DNA of 64,000 nucleotides from Bacteroidales bacterium (GTDB taxonomy: Bacteria > Bacteroidota > Bacteroidia > Bacteroidales > JAAYJT01), in the NCBI GenBank assembly GCA_014860575.1, contig JACZJK010000056.1, positions 1 through 64,000 on the forward strand, written 5' to 3'. The translations under genes and the position numbers were made by a program. The notes beneath the pieces are model-generated. The model saw only the letters and a program-made list of their open reading frames with translations. It was not told the origin of the DNA and did no database searches. Numbering within the stretch: the stretch's first letter is position 1; each line of letters begins with the position of its first letter. This document shows positions 20,954 through 59,373 of this stretch, in pieces.

Positions 20954-23900
20954 TTATAACGCATTGTCGTTTTCGGTTTGAGATACTTTGTCTTCGAATT
21001 TGCGGAACTTCTGGTAAACCAGGTATGATTCTATGCCCTGATCGAGTTTATCGTTGAGGCGGTTTAGGGCGGCGAGTAGGGCGGGGTCGGTTGCTGGTTG
21101 TGGGTTGTTGGTTGCTGGTTGCTGGTTGGTGGTTGCGGCCGGTGGATCCGATAAGCGCCCTTGTGAGTATTGTGGAACCCTGGCAGCGTGAATGGCCTGC
21201 ATTACTTCCGGGAAGTTTACACGGATATTGCGCAGTGTGGGGTTATCAATGATAAGCTCATCGCCTTTCTCACCTACCAAAGCGTTTCTGTAAATTCCTG
21301 TTTTGGCAGGGCCCATAAAAGGAACATCCTTGTAGAGTTTGTTGTCATCCTTACCGATAACATTGTAGCGGCCTTTGACAAACTGAGGCATTTTCTGAGA
21401 AGCAATTACCGCAGTTTGTAAAGCTCCTGAAATACCGGCAGCAACTACCATAGGTAAATTAGCCCAGCCTCCTGGAGCTGCTGACCATGCCCGGCTTACA
21501 GCAAGCGCTGTATTGATTATACTTTGTATTATATCAGCACGATGTTGGCGTTTCCATGCCTGTTCTTTAATCTTCGCCTCTTGTACCCGGTAGCGTTCCT
21601 GTATTTTTTCCCGCTGTTCAGCGGTAAGGTTTTCATTGTTGAGTTCAGCATCCCGGCGTTGATTTAGGGCATACATTTGCCGGTCATACTGAGAATTGAT
21701 ATAGTTTGTGAACATCTGGAAACCGGCATTGAGAGAATCATCAACAATTTGCTTACGCGCACTTTCCCAATCCTTTTCCAGCTTTTCCTTTTTCGCGTTT
21801 TTCTTAGCCTCTTCATCAAGCTCAAACTGAATACGGTTACTGGTTCTATCCAAATCCTCCTGGTGATCCTGTTCCTTCCGCGACTTAATTTCATCAAAGG
21901 TGCCTTTCCAATCTTCAAGGAATTTTTTATTAAAAGCATCGCTTTCCTGCAGAAGGCTTTCTTCTGAATCAGTGAGATTATCCAGGAATCCAATAACATC
22001 ACCACCATTGGCAATGATACCATCAATTACCAGTTTTTGAGCCTCAAGGGTTTTAATTACGACATCAGCTTGCCTGGCAGCAGCATAATTCCCCTCAGCC
22101 ACGAAAGCAGCCTGGGCTTTACGCGCGTCGTTGATGGCTTTGGTAATATTTTCGTATGCTGTAGAAACATCTCCGTTTGGATCCGGATCCGGTGTATCAT
22201 CTTCACCACCACCAGCAGGAGGGGGAAATGCTCCCGGGGTTTTGGCAACCTGGTTCATCAATTCATTATATACTTCGAGTATTTCATTAATCTCTTTCTT
22301 TAATCCATTAATGGCTCTTTCACGTGCTGCTCCGCGTACACCTTCAACGATGTTGTTCTGCTTGTTATATTCGGCAGCAGTCATTCCTTCAATAGCCTTC
22401 AGTTCATCTTTTTTAATATCAGCTTCAGCAAATAGCTTTTTCGCTTTTTCCTGTTGAACCTCCATCTCAATTTTATTTCTGAGAGCGGTAGCAACATTAT
22501 TGTATGCAGTTTCAATTTCCTGAAGTGTTGATTTTTCTGAAAGCAGGCTAGGCAAATAATCTTTGTATTGATCATTTATTTGCTTGATTAGTCTATTACG
22601 TGTTTCAGCAGTAATATTCGTATTTTTTAATACTGTAAAAAGCTTATCGAGTTGCGCCACTTCTTCTGCAGCGCCTTCAGTAGCTTGCTGCCTTATTTCA
22701 TTATAAGCCTTTTGCTTAATTGTAAGGCTCTCTGTTTCGCGGCCGAGCTGCCTGATGTAAACCAGTAGGCCGATAATAGCGCTAGCTGCCAGCGCCCATG
22801 GGTTAACTTTAACAACTAAATTAAAAGCTTGCATTGCTTTCGTTCCCAGCCAAAGTACAGCAGTAAATGTTTTTTTTGCTATGATAGCTCCATTGGTGGC
22901 AATAGTATAAGCTATGATGGCGCTGAGAGTTGCAATGATCAGACTGCGATTTTCCTCCCAGAATTTAATTCCGCCCATGATGGCCTTTATCAGGTAGCTG
23001 AACGCATTGGTGCTGAAAGTAAGCGCCGGTGCAAGTTTTTCACCCAATTCCATCCTGAGTAAAGCAGCACGGTTTCGCGCCTGCTCAAGCCTGGTTTTAT
23101 TATTATCGCTGTTAATGATGGCCTGCTCAACAGCTATATTGGTATCTGATACGGCAGCTGTGTAGCGTTTAATTTCTTCACGGCTATCAATCAGGGCAAG
23201 GGCCATGTTGATGCTTTCCAGACCAAAGAGTTTAGTGAGATCAGCAACTGAATATTGTTTTGCAGCTAGGTTATCCAACGCCTGTTCCATTCCAACAATG
23301 GCGGGGTTCACATCATCGGCCCCTGATTGAAGGCGGATAAACATGGTCCTGAGCTGTGTGCCAGCAATTTCAGGCTGTGAGAATTTAGGAGCTATCCCTT
23401 CAATAACTCCAACCAGTTCTTCAATTTCAATTTTAGCATTATAAGCTGATGTACCCGATTTTTCGATCACGGCATTGAGGTAGGGGATATCACCGGCGCC
23501 TACCTTAGATCCGGCTCCCAAGGTATTGATGATCCTTCTGGCTTCGCTGGCTGAAACATTGAACTGGTTCATTGTAGTAGTAAGCGCGGTAGCGGCTGGT
23601 ACCAGGGTAATATTTGCTGCCTTACTTAGAATCATGGCTTCCTCGGTAACAGCAGCCAACGCTTCGCGGTTGGCAAGCAGTTCCGGCCGCTTTGAACCGA
23701 TCAGTGTATAAGCGTTTACAATATCAATGGCTGCATTTGTGAACCTTACGCCATCTTCGGTTGCTCCTGTGGAAGCGGCTTTTGCCCGTTCACTCAGCCA
23801 GTCAAGCTGCTCGCCCGCCAAACCAGTCAGCGCACTGAGGTTTGATACTGCTGCCTGGTATTCGTTAAACTCTTCAACCAATTTTTTAAAACCCATTACG

Positions 23901-24394
23901 CTCCCCAGGATTGAAGCGGAAAATGCCGCGATCATTCCAAAGTAACGGTTGAAGCCACCGGCAATGCGTTGCATAAGAGTTTGCTGCTGGTTAAAGCCCC
24001 GCATCTGTGCTGTAGTCTTTTGTATTTCGGTTTGAACCCGCTGCAATTGTGCTGTTTTGTCGGCAAATACTTTTTTGCCTTCGGCAGTATTGCGGTTCAT
24101 TGTGCGCAACTCAGAGTTAAGTGTACGCTGCGCCCTGGTAAGTTCTTTGAGGCTGGCACCGCTAAGATCCTTCATAACTGCATTGAGGTCGAAAGTGCTT
24201 TTGCGAGTGTCTTTGATTTTCTTATCAAGTGCGTCAAACTCACGTTTTTTTGCTTCATAACCCGGATCTTTTGCCAGGCGCAGCTCTTTGAGCTCTTTTT
24301 TCATCTCACGGGCTCTTGCAGTGAGCTCCTTTAGTTGGTTGTCAGCCTGCTGCCCATCGAGTTCAACCCTTGCGGTTGCGGTTTCGTTTGCCAT
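20954..24394 (-). CDS. phage tail tape measure protein
   Basis: About 1146 residues from the ATG at 24394; an upstream ATG (24481) would run through the promoter and a terminator. Residues 1-150 are a charged coiled coil (KELTARAREMKKELKEL). Then comes a TP901-type tape-measure core (AVSNLSALTGLAGEQLDWL, GSKVGAGDIPYLNAVIEKSG, QLRTMFIRLQSG). Hydrophobic segments follow near 490-560, then another coiled coil near 870-950. It sets the length of a non-contractile tail. At the usual 0.15 nm per residue it predicts about 170 nm. A spacer-type repeat is embedded in frame near the C-terminus. Confidence 0.92.
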   Translation of the reverse strand: MANETATARVELDGQQADNQLKELTARAREMKKELKELRLAKDPGYEAKKREFDALDKKIKDTRKSTFDLNAVMKDLSGASLKELTRAQRTLNSELRTMNRNTAEGKKVFADKTAQLQRVQTEIQKTTAQMRGFNQQQTLMQRIAGGFNRYFGMIAAFSASILGSVMGFKKLVEEFNEYQAAVSNLSALTGLAGEQLDWLSERAKAASTGATEDGVRFTNAAIDIVNAYTLIGSKRPELLANREALAAVTEEAMILSKAANITLVPAATALTTTMNQFNVSASEARRIINTLGAGSKVGAGDIPYLNAVIEKSGTSAYNAKIEIEELVGVIEGIAPKFSQPEIAGTQLRTMFIRLQSGADDVNPAIVGMEQALDNLAAKQYSVADLTKLFGLESINMALALIDSREEIKRYTAAVSDTNIAVEQAIINSDNNKTRLEQARNRAALLRMELGEKLAPALTFSTNAFSYLIKAIMGGIKFWEENRSLIIATLSAIIAYTIATNGAIIAKKTFTAVLWLGTKAMQAFNLVVKVNPWALAASAIIGLLVYIRQLGRETESLTIKQKAYNEIRQQATEGAAEEVAQLDKLFTVLKNTNITAETRNRLIKQINDQYKDYLPSLLSEKSTLQEIETAYNNVATALRNKIEMEVQQEKAKKLFAEADIKKDELKAIEGMTAAEYNKQNNIVEGVRGAARERAINGLKKEINEILEVYNELMNQVAKTPGAFPPPAGGGEDDTPDPDPNGDVSTAYENITKAINDARKAQAAFVAEGNYAAARQADVVIKTLEAQKLVIDGIIANGGDVIGFLDNLTDSEESLLQESDAFNKKFLEDWKGTFDEIKSRKEQDHQEDLDRTSNRIQFELDEEAKKNAKKEKLEKDWESARKQIVDDSLNAGFQMFTNYINSQYDRQMYALNQRRDAELNNENLTAEQREKIQERYRVQEAKIKEQAWKRQHRADIIQSIINTALAVSRAWSAAPGGWANLPMVVAAGISGALQTAVIASQKMPQFVKGRYNVIGKDDNKLYKDVPFMGPAKTGIYRNALVGEKGDELIIDNPTLRNIRVNFPEVMQAIHAARVPQYSQGRLSDPPAATTNQQPATNNPQPATDPALLAALNRLNDKLDQGIESYLVYQKFRKFEDKVSQTENDNAL
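21089..21138. repeat. family B repeat inside the tape measure gene
   Basis: Units of GGTTGCTGGTTGTGG that on the minus strand encode a Thr-Asn-Gln-Pro-Ala tract (TTNQQPATNNPQPATDP). The same repeat lies between genes elsewhere in the prophage. Confidence 0.65.
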
Positions 24395-24460: not shown

Positions 24461-24500
24461 AAAAATAAAAAAGCCCTGCACGTTGTGGACCCGCAGGGCT
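24461..24500 (-). terminator. Rho-independent terminator
   Basis: AGCCCTGC (24472-24479) pairs with GCAGGGCT (24493-24500). On the minus strand the stem is followed by a T-rich run (24461-24471). It lies 20 nt past the stop of the 94-residue gene and separates it from the tape measure promoter. Confidence 0.8.
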
Positions 24501-24520
24501 AGGTTTGGAAAGTGTGGATA

Positions 24521-24805
24521 CTATGTCCGGATGAGCCAGCAGAATTGGCGTTCTTCGGTGTCGTAGTTTGAGATATAACCTTTTTCGCGAAGCATGGTAA
24601 CCAACTTGGCCGGTGTTATTGCATCGGGGCAGTGGCTGTTAATCATTTCAAAGATTTCGGCGGTGGTCATATCTTTCTGGTTCTCCTGGCGCGAAGCTGC
24701 AGGCGGGAAATTCTCAACAAAGGTTGCGAATACTTCGTTTATAGCTTCTTGCAGGTCATTGTTTGAGGGCGTTAGGGGCCCGGATTCTTCTTCAAAGAGT
24801 GGCAT
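24521..24805 (-). CDS. small winged-helix-like protein, autonomously transcribed
   Basis: 94 residues, not assigned to a family. The C-terminal 50 residues (TTAEIFEMINSHCPDAIT, KLVTMLREKGYIS) look like a small winged helix. It has an unusually strong Shine-Dalgarno AAGGAGG 8 nt before the ATG, rare in Bacteroidota. It also has its own promoter, a structured leader and its own terminator. That independent unit inside a structural operon is what defines a phage moron. A DNA-binding or regulatory role is inference from the fold alone. Confidence 0.7.
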   Translation of the reverse strand: MPLFEEESGPLTPSNNDLQEAINEVFATFVENFPPAASRQENQKDMTTAEIFEMINSHCPDAITPAKLVTMLREKGYISNYDTEERQFCWLIRT

Positions 24806-24822
24806 AATTTAATCCTCCTTAT

Positions 24823-24909
24823 GCAGGGAAACCCTGTATCCGCCACAAGGCCGCGCAGCCTTTCCACCACCCCGAAGGGTGGCTTCTCACAGATACAGGG
24901 TTTCCCTGC
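24823..24909 (-). repeat. 87-bp element with 18-bp perfect inverted repeats, structured leader
   Basis: Arms 24823-24840 and 24892-24909 are perfect 18-bp reverse complements. Read on the minus strand, the enclosed 51 nt hold two more hairpins: CCACCC-TTCG-GGGTGG (24867-24882, a UUCG tetraloop) and AAGGC...GCCTT. The transcript would be a three-way junction closing 5 nt before the Shine-Dalgarno of the 94-residue gene. It is either a cis-regulatory RNA or a small terminal-repeat element. Confidence 0.65.
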
Positions 24910-24996
24910 AATATTTTGGTTAGTAAAAGAGGATTCTGAGAACATGATCGCGCTTTTGTGGTACAGCTGTAGTCATGGTGACCACTACTGATGGCG

Positions 24997-25030
24997 CAAA
25001 TATATATTAAAAAGGATGGAATTCGACAAA
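24997..25030 (-). promoter_or_regulatory. Bacteroidota-type promoter for the structured leader
   Basis: On the minus strand TTTG (25027-25030), 22 nt, then TATATTTG (24997-25004), a match to TAnnTTTG. Transcription from here gives a leader of about 185 nt ending at the 94-residue gene. Confidence 0.55.
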
Positions 25031-25040
25031 ATGGTTTGCA

Positions 25041-25205
25041 TTATTTCTCTTTTATTTTGTCGTTAAGCTTTTTCAGCTCTTTTACAATGTCTTCAAGGTT
25101 CGCTACAATAGCGTAAATCTTGTAATACCATAATACAATAGGGCGGATAAGGAAGAATACTATGACTGAAAGAAATATCCACAGAAAAATTGAGCTGTGT
25201 TCCAT
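25041..25205 (-). CDS. small single-pass membrane protein
   Basis: 54 residues starting MEHSSIFLWIF. One transmembrane segment (FLWIFLSVIVFFLIRPIVLW) is followed by a charged helical tail (EDIVKELKKLNDKIKEK). The sequence is unrecognised. It follows a secreted small protein by 12 nt on the same strand, so the two are probably an operon. Spacing and composition look coding. Confidence 0.5.
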   Translation of the reverse strand: MEHSSIFLWIFLSVIVFFLIRPIVLWYYKIYAIVANLEDIVKELKKLNDKIKEK

Positions 25206-25217
25206 AATAGATGATTT

Positions 25218-25643
25218 TTAGAAGTTATAGACTAGACCAAGCCCGTGCTCAGTTGGGTAGATAGCAATATTTTGTCTATTCATCAGCTTAAGAGCTTTGG
25301 TTTGTTTGCTGGATCCTAAATGATAAAGAAAGATTGAAGCGCCTGAGGTAAGAGCAAATACAGAGTTAAGACTAGTAATAGACTTTTCAGTATCAATCAT
25401 TTTCTTAGGTAAAATAATTCCTTTGTAAATATAGGCGTAAGCTACACAGTTGCCAGCTATTACAACAAAGGCAATAGTTTTCAACACTTCAGCCTGGTTA
25501 ACGAGTTTATTTATTTCAACCTGGTTAGATGCTGATACTTGAATAAAGGATTGAGATTCTTGAGACGTTGGAACACCATCCAGTTCCTGTGCATTTATAC
25601 TAAAGCCCAATAAAATTAAAACCAGTGTAAATAGATTTTTCAT
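25218..25643 (-). CDS. small exported membrane protein, unknown
   Basis: 141 residues from the ATG at 25643, which begins a clear signal peptide (MKNLFTLVLILLGFSINAQ). Two hydrophobic segments follow (TIAFVVIAGNCVAYAYIY and VFALTSGASIFLYHLG). The family is not recognised. It sits at the edge of the cargo island next to the 54-residue membrane protein. Confidence 0.65.
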   Translation of the reverse strand: MKNLFTLVLILLGFSINAQELDGVPTSQESQSFIQVSASNQVEINKLVNQAEVLKTIAFVVIAGNCVAYAYIYKGIILPKKMIDTEKSITSLNSVFALTSGASIFLYHLGSSKQTKALKLMNRQNIAIYPTEHGLGLVYNF

Positions 25644-25753
25644 AGAAAGACAGTTTTGGTTAATGATGCTGCTAAAATACAAAAAGGTAAAATTGGGCAA
25701 GCCGTCAAAAAGGATGATTTATTTATTATCTTGCGTTGCCTAACTGAAACCAG

Positions 25754-25924
25754 ATGAAAGAGAGCAAACAATGCCCAAAATGCGGACCGACTGGAACCCG
25801 GGAGATCACCATCACGTTTTATAATGCATCAGATTATCGGTTGAAGTTCTGGCACTGGGTCCAATTGCTGCTCTTCAGAAAAGTTAAAGTGAGAGTTTGT
25901 GAGGGGTGTGGGAGAGGGGTGTAG
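25754..25924 (+). CDS. small zinc-ribbon protein
   Basis: 56 residues with CPKC at positions 7-10 and CEGC at 49-52, two Cys pairs that can bind one zinc. The middle is aromatic and hydrophobic (FWHWVQLLLF). It is on the + strand, opposite to its neighbours, which suggests an independent insertion. Function unknown. Confidence 0.5.
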   Translation: MKESKQCPKCGPTGTREITITFYNASDYRLKFWHWVQLLLFRKVKVRVCEGCGRGV

Positions 25925-25964
25925 TATTGCAACTGTTTTTTTTGTTTGACTAAGGCTGAATTTA

Positions 25965-27767
25965 TTATTCAACAATATATTCGCCAAATATTTCTTTCAT
26001 TTTTTTTCTCCAATTTTCAGGTATGTCTAACCATCCTCCTCCCCATTTCTCGGTTTCTTGGAATGCTTTAAAAGGCTTCTCATAGGTAGCACTATAACCA
26101 ATTTCATTTTCTACATTTTCAATCATTAAAACTATTCTACCATTAGAACCAACAGCATCTTCAATCGGTTTATTATATTTTGTGGCACCTTCTGTTCCAT
26201 TATCTCTATCATGCACGACAATCGGCCTAATCCCCATTGCAGTTAAGTATTTAACAAGGCCAATAATTGCAGCCTTACCTCTTGCTTTAATTACCTCAAA
26301 TCTTGAGATGATATTTAAAAAATTTTCTCTTTTTAATCTTTTTAAAGATTCCTTAATAAGTATATCCTCGGTGTCACCTTCTATTATAACAACATTTTCA
26401 GTAAAAAAAACTCTTGAGACATAGTCATCTAGTTTTAATAGCATTTTGACATATTGTTTATCATCGGAAACCAATTGCTGGAAAGTATCAGAAACAATAA
26501 ATGGTAATATTTTAATTTCATTACCATCAATTGATAAACGATTTAAAATTTGTCTTGGCTTTTTTGATAAATCAATTATATAAGGGGAATGCGTTGTTGC
26601 TATTATTTGAGAAGAAAAGCCACTTAATTCATAAATAGCATTTCTCATTTGATTTGCAGCACTTGGATGTAAGTAAATTTCAGGCTCTTCAAAGCAAATT
26701 ACTAATGACCTAGCATGTTCATCTTCTTTCTGAGATAACCACTTTTGTCTAAAACGTAACATTCCAAAAGCAGCAGCCCTAACCATACCTGAGCCTTGGT
26801 TTTCTACTGTTGTCCTAATATTACTAGACATTTCAACACTAAATGAAGGCTTAAGAACTTTATCTGGGTCGCTCAAGTCTGCTGTTGCATGAAGTTTAGA
26901 ATCAGGAAAAACACTTGCTAAAACAGTGTTTAAATCACCAATCATTTTGCCGAATTCTGAATCCTTATCTTCTGGATTTAATTCTTTAGCAAGTTTATTT
27001 AAATGAATTTGTGCATTTTGATAGTTCAACGATTTTACCCTAACATCTTCAAATAGCTCATTTAAAGTTTTGCCGAGTACACCTGAACTAGAACCTTGAA
27101 TTTCATTTATTGATGTATCAACAGGTATCACTAAAAAACGAGGAAGCATTTTCAGAACATTGCCAGGTATTCCTCCTGGATTTTTAAACCATGTATCAGT
27201 AGCCTGAATATCCCAAATATCATCAAGCTCCTCAAGCTTATCAAAAGCGCCCTGATTCTTTCCTATTACTTTGTTTAATTCGGGGAATAACTCTGACACT
27301 ATTGAAGAATCAATACCTCTATCAATATAATCTTGTCCGGTTTTGCATGAAGAAAATTCTTTTGAAATTTCTCTAACTTTAGATTTGAATTCAATCTTAA
27401 CATCTTTTCCAAGCTCGTAGGTCTTTCTATAGGTAACAGAAAGTCCTGTTTCACCTTCTTGAAAATATTCAAAGATTCGACCTTTAAATCCTCTCCAACT
27501 TTTAGATTCGATTGGCAGGTTTCTAAACTCTCCTTCAAGGATAATAATTGTAGACTCAATTTTTGTTTCACCTGTCTCGCTGTCAATAATTGAGTAATAT
27601 TCTTGACTTGTAAGCTGTTTCCTTGCAGAAAGCAGGTACTCTATTGCTTTTAACACTGTGCTTTTCCCAGAATTGTTACAACCTATCAGAAAAGTAGCCT
27701 GGCCAAATAAAATCTCAGCTTGTTTAATTCTTTTAAATCCAGCAATCTTAAGTGAATGTAATCTCAT
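25965..27767 (-). CDS. OLD-family ATPase-TOPRIM nuclease
   Basis: 600 residues. N-terminal ABC/SMC-like ATPase: Walker A GCNNSGKS at 29-36, Walker B region VICFEEPEIYLHPS near 360, and IIATTHSPYI after it. A C-terminal TOPRIM domain has the acidic VVIIEGDTED near 460 and DRDNGTEG near 520. This is the OLD/GajA architecture: an ATP-regulated endonuclease that acts in phage defence or in interference with other phages. No UvrD-like (GajB) gene is adjacent, so it is not Gabija. Instead it follows a SIR2-like gene by 122 nt on the same strand. Confidence 0.88.
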   Translation of the reverse strand: MRLHSLKIAGFKRIKQAEILFGQATFLIGCNNSGKSTVLKAIEYLLSARKQLTSQEYYSIIDSETGETKIESTIIILEGEFRNLPIESKSWRGFKGRIFEYFQEGETGLSVTYRKTYELGKDVKIEFKSKVREISKEFSSCKTGQDYIDRGIDSSIVSELFPELNKVIGKNQGAFDKLEELDDIWDIQATDTWFKNPGGIPGNVLKMLPRFLVIPVDTSINEIQGSSSGVLGKTLNELFEDVRVKSLNYQNAQIHLNKLAKELNPEDKDSEFGKMIGDLNTVLASVFPDSKLHATADLSDPDKVLKPSFSVEMSSNIRTTVENQGSGMVRAAAFGMLRFRQKWLSQKEDEHARSLVICFEEPEIYLHPSAANQMRNAIYELSGFSSQIIATTHSPYIIDLSKKPRQILNRLSIDGNEIKILPFIVSDTFQQLVSDDKQYVKMLLKLDDYVSRVFFTENVVIIEGDTEDILIKESLKRLKRENFLNIISRFEVIKARGKAAIIGLVKYLTAMGIRPIVVHDRDNGTEGATKYNKPIEDAVGSNGRIVLMIENVENEIGYSATYEKPFKAFQETEKWGGGWLDIPENWRKKMKEIFGEYIVE

Positions 27768-27889
27768 AATCTATAGAGTTTTCCTGTTTTAGAATGATTG
27801 ATTTATTATTCTGTTAATCGAAGCAACGATAAGATTCAGAACGAAATTATTGTTTTGGAAAATAGAGAGGCCAGAGGGATGTGGTTGGG

Positions 27890-28948
27890 TTATAGTTCAT
27901 ATGGTATAAAGAACTGAGAAGTATCGTCGATCAATTCAATATTGCTTCTCAATTTAGAATTCATATGGCCAAAAAGCATTGAATGAAGCCTTGATTTAAG
28001 TCCGGAAAGAACGGTAGCATCTTTTGATTGAAGAAATATTCTTCTTAGTTGTGGCATCTGGAAAAGTATAAACTCATCTATTTTTCTGTTAAAAAACGGA
28101 AAGGAATAACCTATAACAACTAATGTTTCAGTGTTTTCCAGTGACTTGAATACACCAGAGGATGGTGAGTGATTTAAATCACTAATATTATTTTCCCAAG
28201 CAAAGGAGATCATGGTTTGAAATTTGTATTGGATGGCATTATTCAAAAGAGAATAAATTAGAATAGCGTCCCTGATGCCATATTTTTTATCTACTTTGTA
28301 TAATGAATAATCCGGTAGTGGGAAAACCTGTTCATTATTAATATTATAGATTTGGCTGCTGCCGTTAATCTTCAGCACTGAAAAAGTACTTTCGGAAAAG
28401 GGATCAAACTTCGTACAGATATTTGCTTTATTTTTTATTTCATAATAAGATTGTGTAGGATCAATATACCTGCTAAAGCACAATTCGAATTGTGAATCAT
28501 AATTCCATGTGAGGATTTTTACTTTTCCAGGGATAATAGGTGCTAATGGCATGATAGAATCAGATTTCTCAAGCACTGAGGCAAAAAAATGATCATACCT
28601 GTCATCAGGGGTTAGCAGTGTTTGAACCCAATAAAAGTAGCAAGACAAAAACACCTTAAGTTGTTGAAGTTTCTGAGTTTGATCAGTAAAAAAAAGCATT
28701 TTTGCATAAGTATCTATTGTTTGGTGTTTAGATGCGTCAGTTAATAACAGCATCCCACCATAATAAAGACCAGCATGATGATCTTTAGGGTCAATAACAA
28801 TATTATCATATTTTAGAGATAATTTACTCATGGGATCATTTTGGTAGCTTTCTAGGACCTTTATAAATGTCCACATCGAATCTAAAAGTCCAGATGTAAC
28901 GGGAATAGACTTAGCACTAGCCCCTGCTCCAAGTAAGTACGTAACCAT
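27890..28948 (-). CDS. SIR2-like domain protein, probable NAD-acting defence effector
   Basis: 352 residues. It opens with the Rossmann glycine motif YLLGAGASAKS (residues 4-14), has ILTWNYDSQFE near 149 in the Thr-Asn-x-Asp position, LKINGSSQ in the position of KLHGS, and VVIGYSFPFFNRKIDEF near 290. These are the hallmarks of bacterial SIR2-like defence proteins, which deplete NAD during phage infection in several known systems. The His of the KLHGS motif is replaced by Asn, so catalysis may be altered. Co-directional with the OLD nuclease. Confidence 0.82.
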   Translation of the reverse strand: MVTYLLGAGASAKSIPVTSGLLDSMWTFIKVLESYQNDPMSKLSLKYDNIVIDPKDHHAGLYYGGMLLLTDASKHQTIDTYAKMLFFTDQTQKLQQLKVFLSCYFYWVQTLLTPDDRYDHFFASVLEKSDSIMPLAPIIPGKVKILTWNYDSQFELCFSRYIDPTQSYYEIKNKANICTKFDPFSESTFSVLKINGSSQIYNINNEQVFPLPDYSLYKVDKKYGIRDAILIYSLLNNAIQYKFQTMISFAWENNISDLNHSPSSGVFKSLENTETLVVIGYSFPFFNRKIDEFILFQMPQLRRIFLQSKDATVLSGLKSRLHSMLFGHMNSKLRSNIELIDDTSQFFIPYEL

Positions 28949-29112
28949 AGGTGTTTATTTTAGGAATCAGTATACTTTAACTTCTTTCTAGTTCCCCGTT
29001 CAATTTCAGAATTATGTAATCAAAGTTGTGTTATCAATAAAGGCACGAACACTATAGATATTAAGAAAATGAGTAGTACCTCATAATGATAATCATAATT
29101 ACGGTTGTAAAA

Positions 29113-30195
29113 CTATTTGCCTGATTTCCTTCTATTGTCTTCTTTACATAACATTTGACAATTTCCGGCAATTGTTTTTCCGCCTTCGTGCCAGGGTGTA
29201 ATATGATCGCCTTCCATGCCATCGAGTTCAAAATGTTCTGTGCAGATAGGGCAGATTCCTTTTTGTCTTTCGTATGCTTCTCTTTTCTGATTTGGACTAA
29301 AGGCACGAATATTCAAAAACCTCTCTTTACGATTTAAGACATAATAATAAATACCTTTTTTATTTCCAATGTCTTCATCTTCCATCAGTTTAGCAATTTC
29401 TTCTTCCAGTTTTTTCGAGTCAAATATTGCGTCTTTGAATTCATTATAAAGGAATCCCCAATCTACACCTTTCATTTCTTTACGAGACTTTATAAAGATT
29501 GCTTTTATCCAGTTAATGACGCTTTGGTAATAAAGCCAGATTTCGTTGGCGTTTGGATCATGCTGATGATTTGACATATAAGCCTCAATGTTCCCTTTGG
29601 ATATCCAGTGAAGAGCAGTTTCCAAGTATTCTTGTCGGATGGGTGAGCCGCTCAAATAACTGCTGCCTATTTGGTAAGCCGCACAACCATTTTTGCTGAA
29701 ATATCTTTTCGCATCAGTAACCCAAGAACCAGAATAAACTGCATTACGTAATTCCTGATCGGTAAGTTTTTCGCCTGCAATGTTAATTGTTCGAAACCAT
29801 TGTAATCTTTCACTGTCTGTGCCACTACAATGATAAACCATCAATTTATAGTTAAGTATTTGTTCCTTTTCATCATTTTGAAGATTATGAAAATATCTGA
29901 ACATATACGAGAAATCGCCGTTAACAAACTGGCAGATTGAGATCGTACGTTGCTGACCGTCAATTATTTCGAAATTCCCATCTTCACGGACAGCCCAATA
30001 CATGACATTTAGAGGAAAATCTTTTGTAATTGTGTCAATCACTGCCTCACGTTGTTTGTCTTTGTAAATAAATTCACGTTGATATGGAGGGCGAATATCC
30101 AATTTGCCACCATAGCCGATAACTCCGTTTTCTTCATTGTCCTGGTAGCTATTTGCTAGATCACGGACTGTTATTTCTTTTAGATCAATTTTCAT
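29113..30195 (-). CDS. DUF262-HNH nuclease
   Basis: 360 residues. The DUF262 (ParB/Srx-fold) domain is N-terminal, with FEIIDGQQRTIS near residue 78. The C-terminal HNH domain at about 318-355 reads CPICTEHFELDGMEGDHITPW with the later GNCQMLC pair. Related DUF262-HNH proteins (GmrSD, BrxU class) cut modified DNA using nucleotide energy. Here it overlaps an EcoRI-type methyltransferase gene by 4 nt, so it may act as the nuclease partner of that enzyme. That pairing is inference from overlap. Confidence 0.85.
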   Translation of the reverse strand: MKIDLKEITVRDLANSYQDNEENGVIGYGGKLDIRPPYQREFIYKDKQREAVIDTITKDFPLNVMYWAVREDGNFEIIDGQQRTISICQFVNGDFSYMFRYFHNLQNDEKEQILNYKLMVYHCSGTDSERLQWFRTINIAGEKLTDQELRNAVYSGSWVTDAKRYFSKNGCAAYQIGSSYLSGSPIRQEYLETALHWISKGNIEAYMSNHQHDPNANEIWLYYQSVINWIKAIFIKSRKEMKGVDWGFLYNEFKDAIFDSKKLEEEIAKLMEDEDIGNKKGIYYYVLNRKERFLNIRAFSPNQKREAYERQKGICPICTEHFELDGMEGDHITPWHEGGKTIAGNCQMLCKEDNRRKSGK

Positions 30196-31244
30196 TTTTT
30201 CTTTCGCTTTATTATGATGCGAGAATACGGAACTGTTACAACGCCATCTACCATCATATACAAATCACCATCAACAGCACCTCGTTTCTGAACTTCTTTT
30301 CTGTATTTTTTATGTTCGGGTTTATATGGTTTTATTCCAATTTCGAGACCTAAGTTTGCAATACCTACACCAATTATCTCAAATTGGTCAGGATTATGTT
30401 TGTCCATAAAAGTTATAGGAACTCCCATCATACCATCATAATCAGCTGGAATATCCTTGGTTACGTCTACATTGATTGCATCAAAATTTTCGAATTTTGG
30501 ATATTCTTCTGGTGTGTATTTTCTATATAGTACTAAATCTTCATGTCTTTTGCTAATTTCAAGATTGGTAAACCAATGAACTCCTGAAACTCTAATCATA
30601 CCTTCTTTTCGGTCAGTTGCAGTTGCGTAGTCTTTATAATGTACATTGATAAAATGTCCTGCCCCACCTTTAAATCCGTAACCTAACCAAATTTTGTTGT
30701 CTCTGATTAAAGGAAAAATCTCTTTGTATTTTATTGCATTTTGATGTCCTACTATCACAAACTTTTTGTCGTATTCTATAAGTTGGGCAACGTATTCTCG
30801 GAAAAGCGAAAAAGGTGGATTTGTTACAACAATGTCTGCATGCTTAAGAAGTTCAATACATTCCTTGCTTCTGAAATCTCCGTCCCCTTTTAATATTTTA
30901 ATTCCAATTTCGGCAGGGTCTGGAACCATATTGCCGTTTTTATCTCCGTTATACTCCAAATAGATTGCTTGCTCAGAGTCGTTTTGGCTGAACAGGTCCA
31001 TATTTTGGCTTTTATAGCATGTAGCGATGAGTTTTTTTAGTCCAAGTTTCTCAAAGTTGTATGAGAAGTAATGAAAGAAGCTACTCACTCGAGGATCATC
31101 GCAATTACAATAAACGATTTTGTCTTTAAAATGATCCTTGTAATGTTTTAGTTCTCTTTCGATGTCAGTAAGTTGAGTATAAAACTCGTCTTTTTTGTTG
31201 ATTTTTGCTTCTTGTAGGTTTCTATTTTTTGTTTTGTTTGCCAT
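30192..31244 (-). CDS. EcoRI-type adenine-specific DNA methyltransferase
   Basis: 350 residues. The N-terminal part matches the EcoRI methylase family (KKDEFYTQLTDIERELKHY, VYCNCDDPRVSSFFHYF). The catalytic motif NPPF lies near residue 143 (ADIVVTNPPFSLFREY). The family methylates adenine at the N6 position. The expected EcoRI-like PD-(D/E)xK nuclease is absent; the next, translationally coupled gene is a DUF262-HNH nuclease. This is a modification-restriction pair or a self-protected type IV-like system carried by the prophage. Confidence 0.88.
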   Translation of the reverse strand: MANKTKNRNLQEAKINKKDEFYTQLTDIERELKHYKDHFKDKIVYCNCDDPRVSSFFHYFSYNFEKLGLKKLIATCYKSQNMDLFSQNDSEQAIYLEYNGDKNGNMVPDPAEIGIKILKGDGDFRSKECIELLKHADIVVTNPPFSLFREYVAQLIEYDKKFVIVGHQNAIKYKEIFPLIRDNKIWLGYGFKGGAGHFINVHYKDYATATDRKEGMIRVSGVHWFTNLEISKRHEDLVLYRKYTPEEYPKFENFDAINVDVTKDIPADYDGMMGVPITFMDKHNPDQFEIIGVGIANLGLEIGIKPYKPEHKKYRKEVQKRGAVDGDLYMMVDGVVTVPYSRIIIKRKKK

Positions 31245-31289
31245 CTGCTACTTTTTTATTTCAACTACAATGGTTGCCGATTATTGAGT

Positions 31290-31462
31290 TTATAAACATC
31301 CGCCCAAGGTAGGATTAAAACTTCCCACAATGGATTTAATAACATTATAATACCGGTTGCTGAAAAAGGGTGGGTCAATGTAAATAAGGTCAATATACTC
31401 GTTCGGGAAGGTTTAAGGATCTCCAGGTTGTCACCCAGGATGAGTTTGTTAACGGCTTGCAT
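31290..31462 (-). pseudogene. decayed N-terminal fragment of a site-specific DNA methyltransferase
   Basis: The start MQAVNKLILGDNLEIL is the opening of N6/N4 DNA methyltransferases. After ILK the frame must shift by one base to read FPNEYIDLIYIDPPFFSNRY, which contains the catalytic DPPF motif. A single base lost from the A run near the ILK codons would explain this. Homology then ends within about 20 residues and a stop follows at 31290. The rest of the gene is missing. It lies 45 nt upstream of the intact EcoRI-type methyltransferase, so one modification system seems to have replaced another. Confidence 0.7.
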
Positions 31463-31538
31463 GGAGGTAGGTTTGGTAAACAATGCCGCTAAAATACTAC
31501 TTTAAAAGTAGCTGCAAAACATAAAAAAATGAATTGTA

Positions 31539-32099
31539 TTAATGATTTTGGCCGCAACAGAATTTATATTTCTTTGTACTACCACAGGGGCAAGGGTTAT
31601 TGCGGCCAACTTTAGAAGATCTTGCAGGCGTACTGCTTGTAATTTCATTCACAAAATCAACATGCCCAATTGATGGCACTCGAAAAGAGAAAGAAGTTTT
31701 TCCTTGAAAATTTGTGATTGAGAAATCCCCTTGAGTAATGATATCCATACCAATAAGAACATCAAACCCATTTAACTTACCTTCAGTAGCTTTGATTATT
31801 GGGAATCCTACTTCATTTGGGAGTCTTAAACAGATATGGTAAGTGTTGACATTTGATTCACCATCAGCATGAAAAACCCTTTGTTGGCCGGTCGGTTTTA
31901 ACCCTAATGCATCTACAACTCTTGATGTTATAACCGTACCAGTGGCCCCAGTATCCCATAAGGCATTAAAGTTAACTAATTGTGGTGGCAGTTGACCGGA
32001 ATTGGGATCAAAAGCAATGCCGATATGACATTGTGTAAAAAGAGCCGCTAACAACCCCTTATTTGAAGTCAAATTAAATGCTTTACACTCTATCATCAA
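31539..32099 (-). CDS. retropepsin-like aspartic protease with SEC-C tail
   Basis: 186 residues. [14 protein letters not shown] near residue 46 is a retropepsin active-site motif (Asp-Thr-Gly-Ala), and [18 protein letters not shown] is the second conserved strand. The C-terminus is a SEC-C zinc motif ([16 protein letters not shown]). Single-lobe proteases of this kind act as dimers. The gene overlaps its small upstream partner by 4 nt (ATGA), implying coupled translation. Cleaving the partner or a phage protein is a plausible role; no function is established that I know of. Confidence 0.85.
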
Positions 32100-32332
32100 T
32101 TAAACACTACCCTTGAGTGGTAGGACTGTGTATATGATTCATCACCAGGCTCGCAATATTGGATTAGAAAAGTACCCGGTTCGTGCTCTTTTGATGTTAC
32201 TATAAATGCATCAAGCTCAGAATCAAAGGAGTTAATAACAGTTTGGTTCTTAATAACAATAAATTTGTTATTGTATATTTTCACAAGATCATCTTGATTA
32301 TCAAGATAATATTGAAATTCTTTTTCTAACAT
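32096..32332 (-). CDS. small DUF5678-like partner of the aspartic protease
   Basis: 78 residues: [17 protein letters not shown], then [15 protein letters not shown] and [15 protein letters not shown]. This pattern resembles DUF5678-type proteins, which I recall being encoded next to retropepsin-SEC-C genes. It is first in a two-gene operon with its own promoter 38 nt upstream. It could be a substrate, an inhibitor or an adaptor of the protease. Confidence 0.75.
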
Positions 32333-32532: not shown

Positions 32533-32946
32533 TCAAACCCGCTCCCCGGTCCAGCGCAGGGCGTTATCATCTATGTTTTCGATAATGGTGATGGCTGCAA
32601 TGCGTCCATATTTTTTAGCCAGGATCTCGCGCAGCTTTATGATTTCGGCGTACATCGTTGCACTATACCATTTTTTGGGGCGGCGGCGGTGGTCGCTGCG
32701 GTCCTTAACCATATCAATGGTTACGCCTTTTCCTACCCCCATATCCACAAACTTGCCATAATAATTGAATGTGAACTCAACACGTTCGGGCAGCCCGCCT
32801 GCATTGCTGATAAGGGTGGATTTTAGGCTGTCCTCAAGCTGCCACGATAAACCAATCTTGAGCTTATCAATCTTATCTAGCCAGTTATCCATCACGATAT
32901 CTGCCCAGGCTTCAACGGTTAATCTCAAGTCGGTGTTTTCGGCCAT
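32533..32946 (-). CDS. phage tail completion protein, HK97 gp10-like
   Basis: 137 residues. The core FTFNYYGKFVDMGVGKGV and the basic segment RRRPKKWYSATMY match the shape of gp10-like head-tail joining or tail-terminator proteins, which are around this size. It lies downstream of another tail completion gene. Family assignment is by eye. Confidence 0.6.
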   Translation of the reverse strand: MAENTDLRLTVEAWADIVMDNWLDKIDKLKIGLSWQLEDSLKSTLISNAGGLPERVEFTFNYYGKFVDMGVGKGVTIDMVKDRSDHRRRPKKWYSATMYAEIIKLREILAKKYGRIAAITIIENIDDNALRWTGERV

Positions 32947-37168: not shown

Positions 37169-37265
37169 CGATTGACGATTTTGGATTTACGATTTACGAT
37201 TAAAATGCTAGGTTTAGAGAATTTAGGGTTACTGGCTGTTTTTTGAATTTTGAACTTTGAATTTA
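37169..37265. repeat. spacer repeats before the connector gene
   Basis: GATTTACGATTTACGATT units followed by TTTTGAATTTTGAACTTTG units (family A read on the other strand) fill the gap between the portal and connector genes. Confidence 0.6.
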
Positions 37266-38648
37266 AGAAATAACTTTCTCACTTCCCGTTCCCTTATCCA
37301 GTGTTGTAAGCACCATGTTTGGGATCGTAAAATGAATATCATCCGGCCATTTATTGAAGCGCTTAATAATATACAAGGGGCGCAGGATGCGATCGCGAAA
37401 AGGTTTCATCAGCGCTTGTTTGATAATGAAAAGCTCACGGGCCTCGGTTCCTGAAATCGTTTTGTTTTTCCCGGGAGCACTGCCAATGATACCCTGGTGA
37501 ACGCCGTGGCCATAGGCTATGATGTTGCTGGCTTCTTCGCTGTCGTCAATAAATTCACCGCCTTTGAAATTGTTCTCAATGGGCGTGATCTTCATCCGGC
37601 GCATTTCCTTGCCATCAGGACTTTGCTTAACAAATGAAATCACTGATTTTCCGGTGTTCTTTGTGCTGCTCAAAAACTTATCGAGGTCAGCATATTCTTT
37701 CCTGATTCGTGTTTTTTTCGCATCATCTTCGGTAATACCTTCGGTTCTGAAAATTTCAGCAAAATAATCGTGGGATAGTTCAATATGATATTTGATGGTC
37801 ATTTGGTTATCCATCAATGCATTTTTGAATTCTGGGATCTTGCGGGCATAATCCAGCCAACCGCTTTCAATGATACTCAGCCAGTAAGCTTTCTGGTAAT
37901 ACCTGCGGCCGGGAGTTGGAAAAGAAACCGGAACGATAAAGCGGAAATGCTTAGGGGTCGGAATCTTTTTAGTTGTGCCTGGATCTGGAATAATCCCCAT
38001 CCGTATTTCAAGATCCCGCACGGTATTGTATGGGTTCAGCACTGGTGTAACCTCAATCTCATCGTTACTGGGGTTTTTCTGCCATTTGCCACTGTAAAAA
38101 TGGTGTTCGATCAGTCCGGTTTCGGGGTTCATTTTTTCCCAGCGGCTAAATGCCATTTCTTTCGAGTGCAGCTCCACAATCTTTTTCTCCGGGCTTAAAC
38201 CTATTTCGGGGCAGATATTAAAAAACCATTGCAGGTCTGTCATCTGCTCCAGGAGGTAAAGCTGCATGTCGTTGTTTTCAAAAAATTCGTTGATCTCTTT
38301 GTTGTCAAAGTTTTCAACGAATACCTTTTTGCCTTTTTCGATTTCATATTTACCGTAGGCAATGCCATCGCCATAGCCCAAAGTAATATTAAACAGCAGC
38401 GCGCTTGTTGATTGCGGCGAAGCTTTACAGGCTTCCATGATCCTTTGAGGCAGGGAATTGTCTTCGCCCCAGGGTACCACACCAAGGTATTTTATTTCCT
38501 TGCCTGATTTGTCTTTTTTGCTGAATGGAAGCGGATCGCGGTCGGGTTCGGCAATCATGTTGCGGGTGCTTACGGTGATGGCCGTTTTTGTACCCGCCAG
38601 GTAAGCGCTGCCGGCATTGTCGAGGATAATGATTTTACTGCGTCCCAT
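37263..38648 (-). CDS. phage portal protein
   Basis: 461 residues. It has portal-type features: GVVPWGEDNSLPQRIMEAC, SALLFNITLGYGDG, YYQKAYWLSIIESGWLDYA, and a C-terminal NIIAYGHGVHQGIIG with SGTEARELFIIKQALMKPF. These resemble portals of Bacteroidota siphoprophages. The dodecameric portal forms the DNA entry channel. The upstream 83-residue gene ends at the base just before this ATG. Confidence 0.8.
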   Translation of the reverse strand: MGRSKIIILDNAGSAYLAGTKTAITVSTRNMIAEPDRDPLPFSKKDKSGKEIKYLGVVPWGEDNSLPQRIMEACKASPQSTSALLFNITLGYGDGIAYGKYEIEKGKKVFVENFDNKEINEFFENNDMQLYLLEQMTDLQWFFNICPEIGLSPEKKIVELHSKEMAFSRWEKMNPETGLIEHHFYSGKWQKNPSNDEIEVTPVLNPYNTVRDLEIRMGIIPDPGTTKKIPTPKHFRFIVPVSFPTPGRRYYQKAYWLSIIESGWLDYARKIPEFKNALMDNQMTIKYHIELSHDYFAEIFRTEGITEDDAKKTRIRKEYADLDKFLSSTKNTGKSVISFVKQSPDGKEMRRMKITPIENNFKGGEFIDDSEEASNIIAYGHGVHQGIIGSAPGKNKTISGTEARELFIIKQALMKPFRDRILRPLYIIKRFNKWPDDIHFTIPNMVLTTLDKGTGSEKVIS

Positions 38649-40840: not shown

Positions 40841-41065
40841 TTACGCTCTCATTGGTTTATGTTCTGCTTCTGCTTCCGGTTTTATGGTCATAACTCCATC
40901 TTTTATGGTTATCGTTGCCATATCTCCGGGTTTGAATCCTGCAAAGCTTAACCAGTTGCCCATTAACTTAATCAGGGGCTTAACCTTTGCCGGGCGTCCG
41001 GTTGTGGATGGGATTATAAAAGGCTGTATTTTTACAATTCGCATCTGTATAACTTTCCCGCTCAT
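40841..41065 (-). CDS. SymE-like / AbrB-fold small protein
   Basis: 74 residues. LIKLMGNWLSFAGFKPGDMA with TITIKDGVMTIKP matches the SymE pattern (Gly-x-Trp-Leu, Ala-Gly-Phe-x-x-Gly), a SpoVT/AbrB-fold family that includes the RNA-acting SymE toxin. Here it overlaps the ArdC stop by 4 nt, so it is co-translated with an antirestriction protein rather than standing beside a type I antitoxin. Confidence 0.7.
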   Translation of the reverse strand: MSGKVIQMRIVKIQPFIIPSTTGRPAKVKPLIKLMGNWLSFAGFKPGDMATITIKDGVMTIKPEAEAEHKPMRA

Positions 41066-54809: not shown

Positions 54810-54867
54810 GGATTTGGTTTTAGGGTTTATTTATAAAGCATTTTGAAAATCAAGTGAACTGATTCAT

Positions 54868-54958
54868 GCGTTAGGGATTGCAGCGGATATCCTTTTTGCC
54901 GGCTGTTATGTTTTGGCAAAAAGATATGAGCGGAAAGCCCGACCCCTTGGGGTAACGC
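54868..54958. repeat. folded intergenic element with nested inverted repeats
   Basis: Outer arms GCGTTA/TAACGC enclose an inner hairpin in which CCTTTTTGCC can pair with GGCAAAAAG. The second half carries a G/C-rich stretch around CCCGACCCCTTGGGGTAACG. I recall similar elements as common intergenic sequences in Bacteroidota genomes. No gene is visible here. Confidence 0.45.
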
Positions 54959-56424: not shown

Positions 56425-56506
56425 GGTTTAGATGGTTTATGAGGTTTAGAAAGTTTAGTGATTTTTATTAATTTTTTCTCACTGTGCCTATATTTTGCTG
56501 TTACAA

Positions 56507-56721
56507 CTGCCTACACTCGCCTACAAAGTTTAATTAACTGATTTCCACTTTAATATACTGACTACATTATTGTTTTTTTTGTAGTTTTTGTAGTTTGTTG
56601 TAGGCAGTGTAGGCGAGTGTAGGCAAGTGTAGGCGGCGGCATAATTCTGTTTTTATGGGTTATCGTTTTCATTGTCAGTTTTTTATTTCTTGTAGGCGAG
56701 TGTAGGCATGTGTAGGCGGGG
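56507..56721. other. iteron cluster, candidate phage replication origin
   Basis: Nine copies of (G)TGTAGGC in three groups. Two are inverted at 56509-56525, four direct at 56599-56636, and three direct at 56691-56719, spaced by 10 bp. The inverted group and the direct copies form a 17-bp perfect inverted repeat (GCCTACACTCGCCTACA at 56509-56525 against 56608-56624 and 56691-56707). The stretch between is AT-rich. Location directly downstream of the primase-helicase gene fits a plasmid- or phage-type iteron origin. No gene is visible from 56425 to 56880. Confidence 0.6.
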
Positions 56722-56880: not shown

Positions 56881-59373
56881 TTAAAATGCCTGGTTTTGCG
56901 TTGTTACTTCTTCGTCTTCTGCTTCACCAAGGATTACGTTTACATCATAGTTGTTTGATAGCATTTCATAATCGAAGAGCATAGCAGTCGTTATCTGGCG
57001 CTGTACTTTGCCATCGGTATCTGGCGCGCTTTCCATACCTGATTTCATAATAAAAGCAGTGCTGCGAACTTTACCATAGTATTCTTTTGAGTTGGCCAGG
57101 TAATATTCAAGTGTTTTGATGGGCAGCACCATATCGCGGGTTTGGGCTCCGTGCTTGCGGTACTTCTGAAAAATGCGGGTGTGGTTCAAATAGATGATGT
57201 TGCGCGGCGATTCGGCAAAACCAATCTTGCCCCGGTCGGTTGTAAGGTCTTCGTTGCGAAACAATACCTTGAAGTCAACTTTATCAACCAGTTCGTTTTC
57301 TTTTACAAGGAAGGTAAATATATCCCAGAAGTTGGCAACATCGTTGGTGCGCTTGGTTTCTTTGTTCTGGCGCATGATCAGTTCAACGCTTTGCTGCAGC
57401 AGCTCTTTGTAGTTGATGTGAGTTTTTATCCTATCCTTCAGGGTTCGGAAAGCGGCAATAACTATTACCCAGTTGCGGAAAATACGGTCTTCGATTACTT
57501 CGGTTCCCAGCAGCGCGTTTATTTCAGAGCAAACTTCATCATACTGGTGCCAGTAATTTTCGATAAAATGTTTGCGGTTGCTGAGCACTTCGTGCGTGAG
57601 GTGGGTCACACCGGCATGCAGGGTATCTTTAAGCTCATTAAAGCGCTGTTTTTCGTCGTCGTTGTACTCGGTTTGTGTGAAGGTGATAAACAGCATACGA
57701 CTGAACAAAGCTATGTCTGCCGTGGGCATTTCTTGTCCTGACAACATTAGCCCAACATCAACACTGGTAGTTTCCTTTTTCTTATCCTTTTCCATGTTCA
57801 TGCGGGTGCGGCCGGTACCATCCCAGATGCCTTTGAGGAACTCAATTTTTTCGAACTCCATGTTATTTTTATACTCATCAATATGGCAAAGGGCGTTGCA
57901 ATGCTGTGCAATGTGATCGGCCAGGGCAGCCTTGCTGGTGTTGTTGATGTTTGGCCCACGGTTTTGCTTACCGAAGAAATGCAACATGCTGATGGCCATT
58001 TCGGTTTTACCGGCGCCCTTGGGTCCGAAAAGATTAAGCATAGGGAAGAAACCAAAGCGGCCAACAATGATGTCGCGGAAGCAAGTAGCGAGGTAAAAAC
58101 AGTAAGCAATGCGGGCATTGGGGCCGAACACTTTTTCGAGGCTGAACACAATATCAAACATTTCGGCTGCACCGGGATGGTGGATAAAGCGGCGCTCGCT
58201 TACAAAGAGGTTGTGCTCGCCGACATAAATTTTTGAGAACGCGGGGATGTAGTAATTCGACTCGTTATGATCAACAATTCCGAACTCGTTAACGCCATGG
58301 TAGGCTCCGTTATAGATGCCGTTGCCCCATGCCCAGAAACCTTCTTTTTGCCAGCCAAGTTGTTTGATCTCGATACAGGTGGCTGTTTTTTCGTAGATGT
58401 AACGCTTGAGCTTGTTGAGTTCAACATCGCCGGCTTCCCACAAAAAATTACCAATGCTTTCAACCCGGAGCTTGAAGCTCTGCAGGCTTACCAGGTCGCG
58501 CTGGGCTAGTTCAATCACCCGCTTGTATCCAAACTCATTGATGATCTCAAAGAGTCGCTTGGCCTCGTTTACGCTCTCAACATGGAAGAGTGGGCGCATC
58601 ACAAAGTTGCTGCCCCGGATGATGCCTTTTGAGGTTCGGAAAAAATAGCGGTACTGATCTTCATAAAAACCGTATTCCTCGAAGGTATTTGCATCAACAT
58701 GCTGGGGAACGATAAAGCGATCTTCTTTTTCGGATTTTGGGGCATCGAGTATGCTGAGCTGCTTGAGTTCGTCGGTCCAGGCTTTTTTGGGTTTGATGAG
58801 CTTGCATACCTGCTCAACATACAACTCGTGGCTGCTTTCGGGCAGGCAGTGTATGAGTTCGCTGATGTGACCTATGAGTTCGTGCTTTACATCGGGGCGT
58901 TTGGCTTTTTCGGCTTTTTGTTGTGCGAACCAAAGGATGTAATCCTGGTGGTTTTCTTTTTCGTATGCGGCAAAATCGTGGGCGGCGAAGAAGCTATCAG
59001 GGTCTTCTTTGCTATCGTCGGGCAGGGTGATCAAATTCACGAACAAACCAAGGCGGATCAATATTTCTGCATTGCGAACCACGGCTTTCTTGCCGGCATC
59101 GTCGCTGTCGCCAATGATTGTTACGCGGGTGCATTGTTTTTTGAGCCATTCGGCCTGATCCTGGCTGAGGGCTGTTCCCAGCGGTGCAATGGTGTTGGTG
59201 ATGCCGATTTCATGCATGCGTATCACATCGGGGTTTCCCTCCACCAGATAAGCGGATCCTGATTTTCGGATCCCGGCAAAGGCTTGCGTGAGGCCGAAGA
59301 AGGTTTGCCCCTTGGTGTAGAGGGATGTTTCGCGGGAGTTGATGTATTTGGGAATCGTTGCTGTGTCGGCCAT
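56881..59373 (-). CDS. primase-helicase, C-terminal part (TOPRIM plus ATPase)
   Basis: 830 residues. The start (KYINSRETSLYTKG) is the middle of a DnaG catalytic core. The TOPRIM acidic residues are in YLVEGNPDVIRMHE (Glu45) and GDSDDAGKKA near 90. After a linker comes a helicase-like ATPase with Walker A GPKGAGKTE near 453. No N-terminal zinc finger is present; that part is the separate gene just upstream. Together they would make one primase-helicase of about 1070 residues. The ATG at 59373 (MADTATIPKYIN) probably restarts translation. Confidence 0.8.
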   Translation of the reverse strand: MADTATIPKYINSRETSLYTKGQTFFGLTQAFAGIRKSGSAYLVEGNPDVIRMHEIGITNTIAPLGTALSQDQAEWLKKQCTRVTIIGDSDDAGKKAVVRNAEILIRLGLFVNLITLPDDSKEDPDSFFAAHDFAAYEKENHQDYILWFAQQKAEKAKRPDVKHELIGHISELIHCLPESSHELYVEQVCKLIKPKKAWTDELKQLSILDAPKSEKEDRFIVPQHVDANTFEEYGFYEDQYRYFFRTSKGIIRGSNFVMRPLFHVESVNEAKRLFEIINEFGYKRVIELAQRDLVSLQSFKLRVESIGNFLWEAGDVELNKLKRYIYEKTATCIEIKQLGWQKEGFWAWGNGIYNGAYHGVNEFGIVDHNESNYYIPAFSKIYVGEHNLFVSERRFIHHPGAAEMFDIVFSLEKVFGPNARIAYCFYLATCFRDIIVGRFGFFPMLNLFGPKGAGKTEMAISMLHFFGKQNRGPNINNTSKAALADHIAQHCNALCHIDEYKNNMEFEKIEFLKGIWDGTGRTRMNMEKDKKKETTSVDVGLMLSGQEMPTADIALFSRMLFITFTQTEYNDDEKQRFNELKDTLHAGVTHLTHEVLSNRKHFIENYWHQYDEVCSEINALLGTEVIEDRIFRNWVIVIAAFRTLKDRIKTHINYKELLQQSVELIMRQNKETKRTNDVANFWDIFTFLVKENELVDKVDFKVLFRNEDLTTDRGKIGFAESPRNIIYLNHTRIFQKYRKHGAQTRDMVLPIKTLEYYLANSKEYYGKVRSTAFIMKSGMESAPDTDGKVQRQITTAMLFDYEMLSNNYDVNVILGEAEDEEVTTQNQAF

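Follow-up and report, generated by a model that had tools for sequence, protein, structure and literature searches.

What does a long T-shaped hairpin do immediately upstream of the Shine-Dalgarno sequence (SD) of P0001, a small gene of a Bacteroidota prophage? The window, here the whole 64-kb stretch of DNA that was analysed, lies within a 170-kb contig of a 4.4-Mb draft genome, and the finding is on its minus strand. The stretch is a tailed prophage, which also contains endolysin and spanin genes. The gene and its landmarks are:

20954-24394, tape-measure gene
37263-38648, portal-like gene
24521-24805, minus strand, P0001, gene for 94 amino acids
24814-24820, minus strand, SD AAGGAGG, 8 nt before the AUG of P0001, predicted to be masked
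24466-24500, minus strand, intrinsic terminator, 9-bp stem followed by U6
24997-25030, minus strand, candidate Bacteroidota-type promoter TTTG-N22-TATATTTG, a motif match only

Related phage loci were retrieved with the portal protein as the probe; the tape-measure protein was unsuccessful as a probe. In the two nearest related prophages (L015 and L031, portal 57–62% identical), the tape-measure gene comes right after the homologue of gene 32533-32946, and 24.5–32.5 kb of the window, P0001 included, is therefore extra here. As read from gene order, this segment with P0001 is acquired cargo. Most of it, at 25040-32332, is a low-GC (33–37%) cargo and defence island, flanked by a tail gene and the tape-measure gene, with an OLD-family ATPase-TOPRIM nuclease, a 352-aa protein of no assigned kind and a GmrSD_N-HNH type II restriction enzyme accompanied by an EcoRI-type methylase. 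Neither of the two closest related loci has the island; two more distant loci have other inserts nearby. G + C content is 43–48% in P0001 and its leader (48% in P0001 itself), 45–46% in the phage backbone and 33–37% in the neighbouring cargo. Since this value is backbone-like, P0001 and its leader may be of different origin from the defence island. A probable further gene of 54 codons (MEHSSIFLWIFLSVIVFFLIRPIVLWYYKIYAIVANLEDIVKELKKLNDKIKEK), unlisted and encoding one membrane helix, is located at 25040-25203, immediately upstream of the leader. Elsewhere in the prophage, many GCCTACA/TGTAGGC repeats in both orientations occupy non-coding DNA at 56500-56720, downstream of the primase gene (56881-59373, minus strand), and look like an iteron-type origin; an Rfam Flavo-1 RNA (RF01705, 53.8 bits) is present on the plus strand at 54863-54948, opposite to the phage genes.

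P0001 was described preliminarily as a 94-residue gene with its own promoter and a strong terminator. Its codon score (0.29) equals the median of the phage genes and is above all 4000 off-frame controls, hence P0001 is a real coding gene with the codon use of the phage backbone. The terminator is indeed strong (stem 24500-24472, −19.2 kcal/mol, then U6). The promoter motif is present and plausible, with transcription probably starting near 24989-24992, but matches to TTTG-N22-TATATTTG in the window number 5 against 4.4 expected by chance. The name of moron, also proposed for P0001, agrees with its absence at this site in the closest related prophages and with the terminator, but not with the chance-level promoter match or with GC and codon use that are not foreign.

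Bacteroidota ribosomes mostly ignore SDs (PMC9976891). SDs of at least 6 nt precede none of the 272 host genes sampled and 3 of the 70 window genes (mock host windows gave 2). The host avoids SDs, a known habit of this group (PMC9976891), and the phage has a few; the perfect SD of P0001, reported as rare in this phylum, is rare in the host but is not unique in the phage. An SD longer than that of P0001, AAAGGAGG, belongs to a 74-aa gene at 40841-41065, just downstream of an anti-restriction gene. No SD precedes rpsU of the host itself, so that SD control of the rpsU type is not displayed by this host.

The leader of P0001 is dominated by the following structure:

24822-24910, minus strand, T-shaped three-way-junction hairpin, 89 nt
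24910-24889 with 24843-24822, closing helix P1
24883-24866, helix P2, with UUCG loop
24862-24847, second helix, P3
24896-24908, minus strand, 13-bp dyad CAGGGAAACCCTG in the 5′ arm, possible operator, putative in function
24824-24836, minus strand, second copy of the dyad in the 3′ arm, possible operator, putative in function

The three-way junction with its UUCG-capped and second hairpins, recognised beforehand, is real: the minimum free energy (MFE) of 24910-24822 is −60.5 kcal/mol (z −7.75), equalled by none of 200 shuffles. Two dimensions are corrected. P1 has 19 perfect Watson-Crick pairs, instead of 18, and 3 more including G.U (22 pairs in all), and the hairpin ends 1–2 nt, instead of 5 nt, before AAGGAGG (24820-24814). 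The G + C content of the hairpin is 60%, against 43–48% around it. The 19-bp arms form the longest perfect inverted repeat of the window; in the related prophage loci (196 kb), perfect arms reach 15 bp at most. In 400 kb of this genome there are seven arms of at least 19 bp (six of 19 bp, one of at least 20 bp), mostly dispersed repeats, so the arm length alone is unexceptional for this genome. Among 738 SD-like sites with a start codon (about 0.7 Mb of sequence), a perfect stem of more than 12 bp stands directly before the site only here. The fold of the sense RNA is more stable than that of the antisense by 9 kcal/mol, and all four non-Watson-Crick pairs are G.U in the sense strand; a role as RNA gains slight support from this, MFE folding being in itself biased in that direction. 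Two other readings of the DNA were rejected. An invertible segment between the arms is not indicated, since the intervening 51 bp are free of promoter-like sequence and inversion would change nothing obvious. A 57-codon ORF through the hairpin (24945-24772) lacks the codon use of a coding sequence.

The inverted, perfect 19-bp arms, the GC-rich composition and the presence of other dispersed hairpin repeats in the genome would suit a mobile palindromic element in the leader (MITE-like, or the terminal-repeat insertion proposed earlier), or else a recent chance inverted duplication of no function. The host repeats belong to two families, with arms CACAAATTGCTGATTTTTA and GCCACGAATGCACGAAT, which are unrelated to the prophage hairpin (L049:4302-4374, L065:18281-18353, L046:17447-17592, L061:16822-16891; L049:587-643 and 1849-1905, L057:1273-1321). 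No second copy of the hairpin was detected in its own genome by BLAST or model. Only chance short matches were obtained in 60 relatives, and only chance matches by distant blastn in phages and plasmids. The exact 18-mer of the arm is absent from IMG/VR, and no GTDB or IMG/VR contig carries both dyads 44–74 nt apart (exact patterns). A covariance search across relatives had been advised for the fold, then counted as 87 nt; a single-sequence covariance model found nothing in 247 related genomes. Diverged copies would escape both exact patterns and a one-sequence model. Rfam yielded no family at gathering or permissive thresholds; the best match, a microRNA model (24 bits, threshold 57), was rejected as a hairpin artefact. 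The flanks (...CCTTA|TGCA and TGCA|ATATT...) show no direct repeat and no target duplication, and no transposase partner was seen. Copies at unrelated sites with target duplications, by which the preliminary description would have recognised a mobile element rather than a riboregulator, were thus looked for and not seen, nor were the arms met as a mobile repeat in the other genomes searched. A mobile repeat is disfavoured, no second copy having turned up in the sequences searched and no target duplication in the flanks, and insertion or chance duplication is considered decidedly unlikely.

The arms may instead act as DNA. Each is a 5-3-5 dyad, the two lie 72 bp apart centre to centre, and CAGGGAAACCCTG / CAGGGTTTCCCTG is confined in this genome to these two arms. 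They could be a pair of operators for a protein, the RNA hairpin being a by-product; the protein is perhaps P0001 itself, if this is a winged helix. Searches of IMG/VR, GTDB (by pattern), phages, plasmids and genomes of the phylum (395) and the order (393) found no relatives of P0001. The two best weak matches were discarded as frames opposing or overlapping unrelated long genes. Pfam places DUF3874 (PF12990) on residues 29-71 below the cut-off (17.1 against 28.3 bits, E 0.0073). By hhalign, residues 43-78 (MTTAEIFEMI..ITPAKLVTMLREKGYI) align with three DUF3874 regions over 36 columns (P 1.8e-4, probability 48%); in two related genomes DUF3874 is located downstream of a VapE-like domain. P0001 and one DUF3874 protein did not align in a direct BLAST comparison. 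A single-sequence structure model is all-helical (mean pLDDT 60.6) and too poor for a winged-helix check; Foldseek matches of this model were dismissed as meaningless. P0001 is probably, as judged from the sequence matches, a small winged-helix-like protein akin to the C-terminal domain of VapE-type replication proteins, and the resemblance of residues 43-78 speaks for operators. Operators would not explain why there are two inner hairpins with a UUCG loop, why the repeat continues past the dyad, why the sense strand folds better or why the SD is only 1 nt away; a purely DNA-level site is accordingly rated unlikely.

Folding of the longer leader points to a role at the level of translation. 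The elements concerned are:

24926-24935, minus strand, anti-SD AAUCCUCUUU, forming helix P0
24920-24976, minus strand, upstream ORF of 18 codons, MTTAVPQKRDHVLRILFY and a stop, its last codons being the anti-SD
24964-24990, minus strand, 5′ leader hairpin over the AUG of the upstream ORF, from the RNA fold
24794-24799, minus strand, second, weaker anti-SD CUCUUU in codons 3-4 of P0001, from a constrained fold

The anti-SD (24935-24926) is predicted to pair over 10 bp with AAGGAGGAUU (24820-24811), with pair probabilities of 0.5–0.99, so that the hairpin is nested inside helix P0, a feature absent from the preliminary description. The whole 125-nt structure including P0 reaches −68.9 kcal/mol (z −8.96), and no shuffle equals it. 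Mean unpaired probability of the SD is 0.05 in the predicted default fold. Masking to this degree is matched in 0.75% of 400 shuffles, in which the 82-nt upstream part alone was shuffled; the energy of the anti-SD/SD duplex (−11.9) is reached by 1.4% of 1000 shuffles and by 1.4% of random window segments. Masking beyond chance is, in these models, suggestive and not decisive, the pairing having been spotted post hoc. When the upstream anti-SD is blocked in a constrained fold, P0 opens and the SD re-pairs with 24794-24799 (mean unpaired probability 0.20); because of this re-pairing with codons 3-4, a clean switch is not predicted. The earlier proposal of a riboregulator thus gains from the position, the very stable fold and the newly found anti-SD, and draws nothing from Rfam and homologue searches, which were empty.

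Long perfect stems are substrates of RNase III, and hairpins stabilise or process messages ahead of several phage genes. An element for mRNA stability or processing, its 22-pair stem cut by RNase III or shielding a processed P0001 message at the 5′ end, would suit the length and perfection of the stem and its position immediately 5′ of the SD. A pure stabiliser requires neither an anti-SD nor inner hairpins, and this function is regarded as rather unlikely.

The upstream ORF, putative from sequence, has its stop 9 nt before the hairpin, and 4% of length-matched off-frame controls attain its codon score. Under strict translation attenuation, as in erm and tetQ, a ribosome would stall or terminate on the 18-codon leader peptide and open P0, and the terminating ribosome might be handed across the hairpin. 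Coincidence of the anti-SD with the last codons of the ORF, the site of the stop and the codon score fit this scheme, and tetQ of Bacteroides is under a translational attenuator (PMC5418344). Translation of the leader ORF is putative, however, with no inducer and no conservation; the start codon is itself enclosed in a hairpin, and the liberated SD is predicted to re-pair downstream. Attenuation in this narrow form seems rather unlikely.

A broader reading, for which confidence is about evenly balanced, is that the leader acts in cis and keeps translation of P0001 low until it is remodelled. The T-shaped hairpin would serve as a rigid bridge joining the distant anti-SD and SD. By default, P0 would mask the SD and translation of P0001 would be low. 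An event at the anti-SD, whether a ribosome on the upstream ORF, a protein, an RNA or an RNase III cut of the long stem, would open or replace P0, and the 94-aa protein would then be made. Cis control is favoured because neither the hairpin nor the 125-nt fold is attained by any shuffle, because the SD is predicted to be masked, as it rarely is in shuffled leaders, and because the hairpin abuts an SD that lies 8 nt before the start codon of a gene whose codon use is that of a coding sequence. It is favoured further by the stronger fold of the sense strand, by the upstream ORF, which ends exactly on the anti-SD, 9 nt short of the hairpin, by the single copy of the hairpin, which is hence no dispersed repeat, and by its being the sole hairpin of such size beside an SD in about 0.7 Mb. 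Against it, no homologue was found and hence no conservation or covariation; the anti-SD is improbable only at about the 1% level and was recognised post hoc; leaders of this size are likely to contain some short ORF; once the upstream anti-SD is blocked, the SD is predicted to pair with codons 3-4 instead; the promoter match is at chance level; and masking may be of little effect, Bacteroidota ribosomes being largely indifferent to SDs (PMC9976891). A bolder version is very improbable: a phage attenuator of a type undescribed in Bacteroidota, combining the T-shaped bridge with a leader-peptide anti-SD, in which the SD would be exposed only when leader ribosomes pause, and SD-reading (for example, bS21-poor) ribosomes would then make the small winged-helix protein.

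If it works as proposed, the leader would be a rare SD-masking RNA switch in an SD-indifferent phylum and would give a handle on when SDs matter in Bacteroidota. As one unreplicated instance at an orphan gene with no relatives found, it carries limited weight. SD-masking leaders are already known as a kind, and the present structure would be a variant, probably a one-off.

Among known systems, phage morons share with P0001 the absence from this junction in related prophages, the own terminator and a candidate promoter, but GC and codon use of P0001 are backbone-like and it borders a larger defence island of low GC. The long stem, the two inner hairpins and the perfect inverted arms recur in T-shaped terminal or recombination palindromes and in MITEs, whereas here the copy is single and internal, with no target duplication and no transposase partner seen. 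Residues 43-78 align with DUF3874 (PF12990) regions of two related genomes; P0001 differs in being a stand-alone protein of 94 aa, below the family cut-off. The rpsU gene of Flavobacterium johnsoniae, translated by bS21-lacking ribosomes (PMC9976891), likewise has a strong SD in an SD-avoiding phylum. SDs of rpsU pair over 9–13 bp with 16S rRNA (PMC9976891); that of P0001, with 7 nt, is below the extended-SD threshold of at least 9 bp, rpsU of this host is without SD, and another phage gene (40841-41065) has a longer one. The ermC and tetQ attenuators, the latter a translational attenuator of the Bacteroides element CTnDOT (PMC5418344), have in common with this leader a short upstream ORF and a fold that sequesters the SD, and events on the leader ORF could open the helix here too. 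Here, in contrast, there is no resistance gene and no known inducer, leader-ORF translation is only putative, and a large T-shaped hairpin separates the anti-SD from the SD; the likeness is one of architecture, and no relationship in sequence is known.
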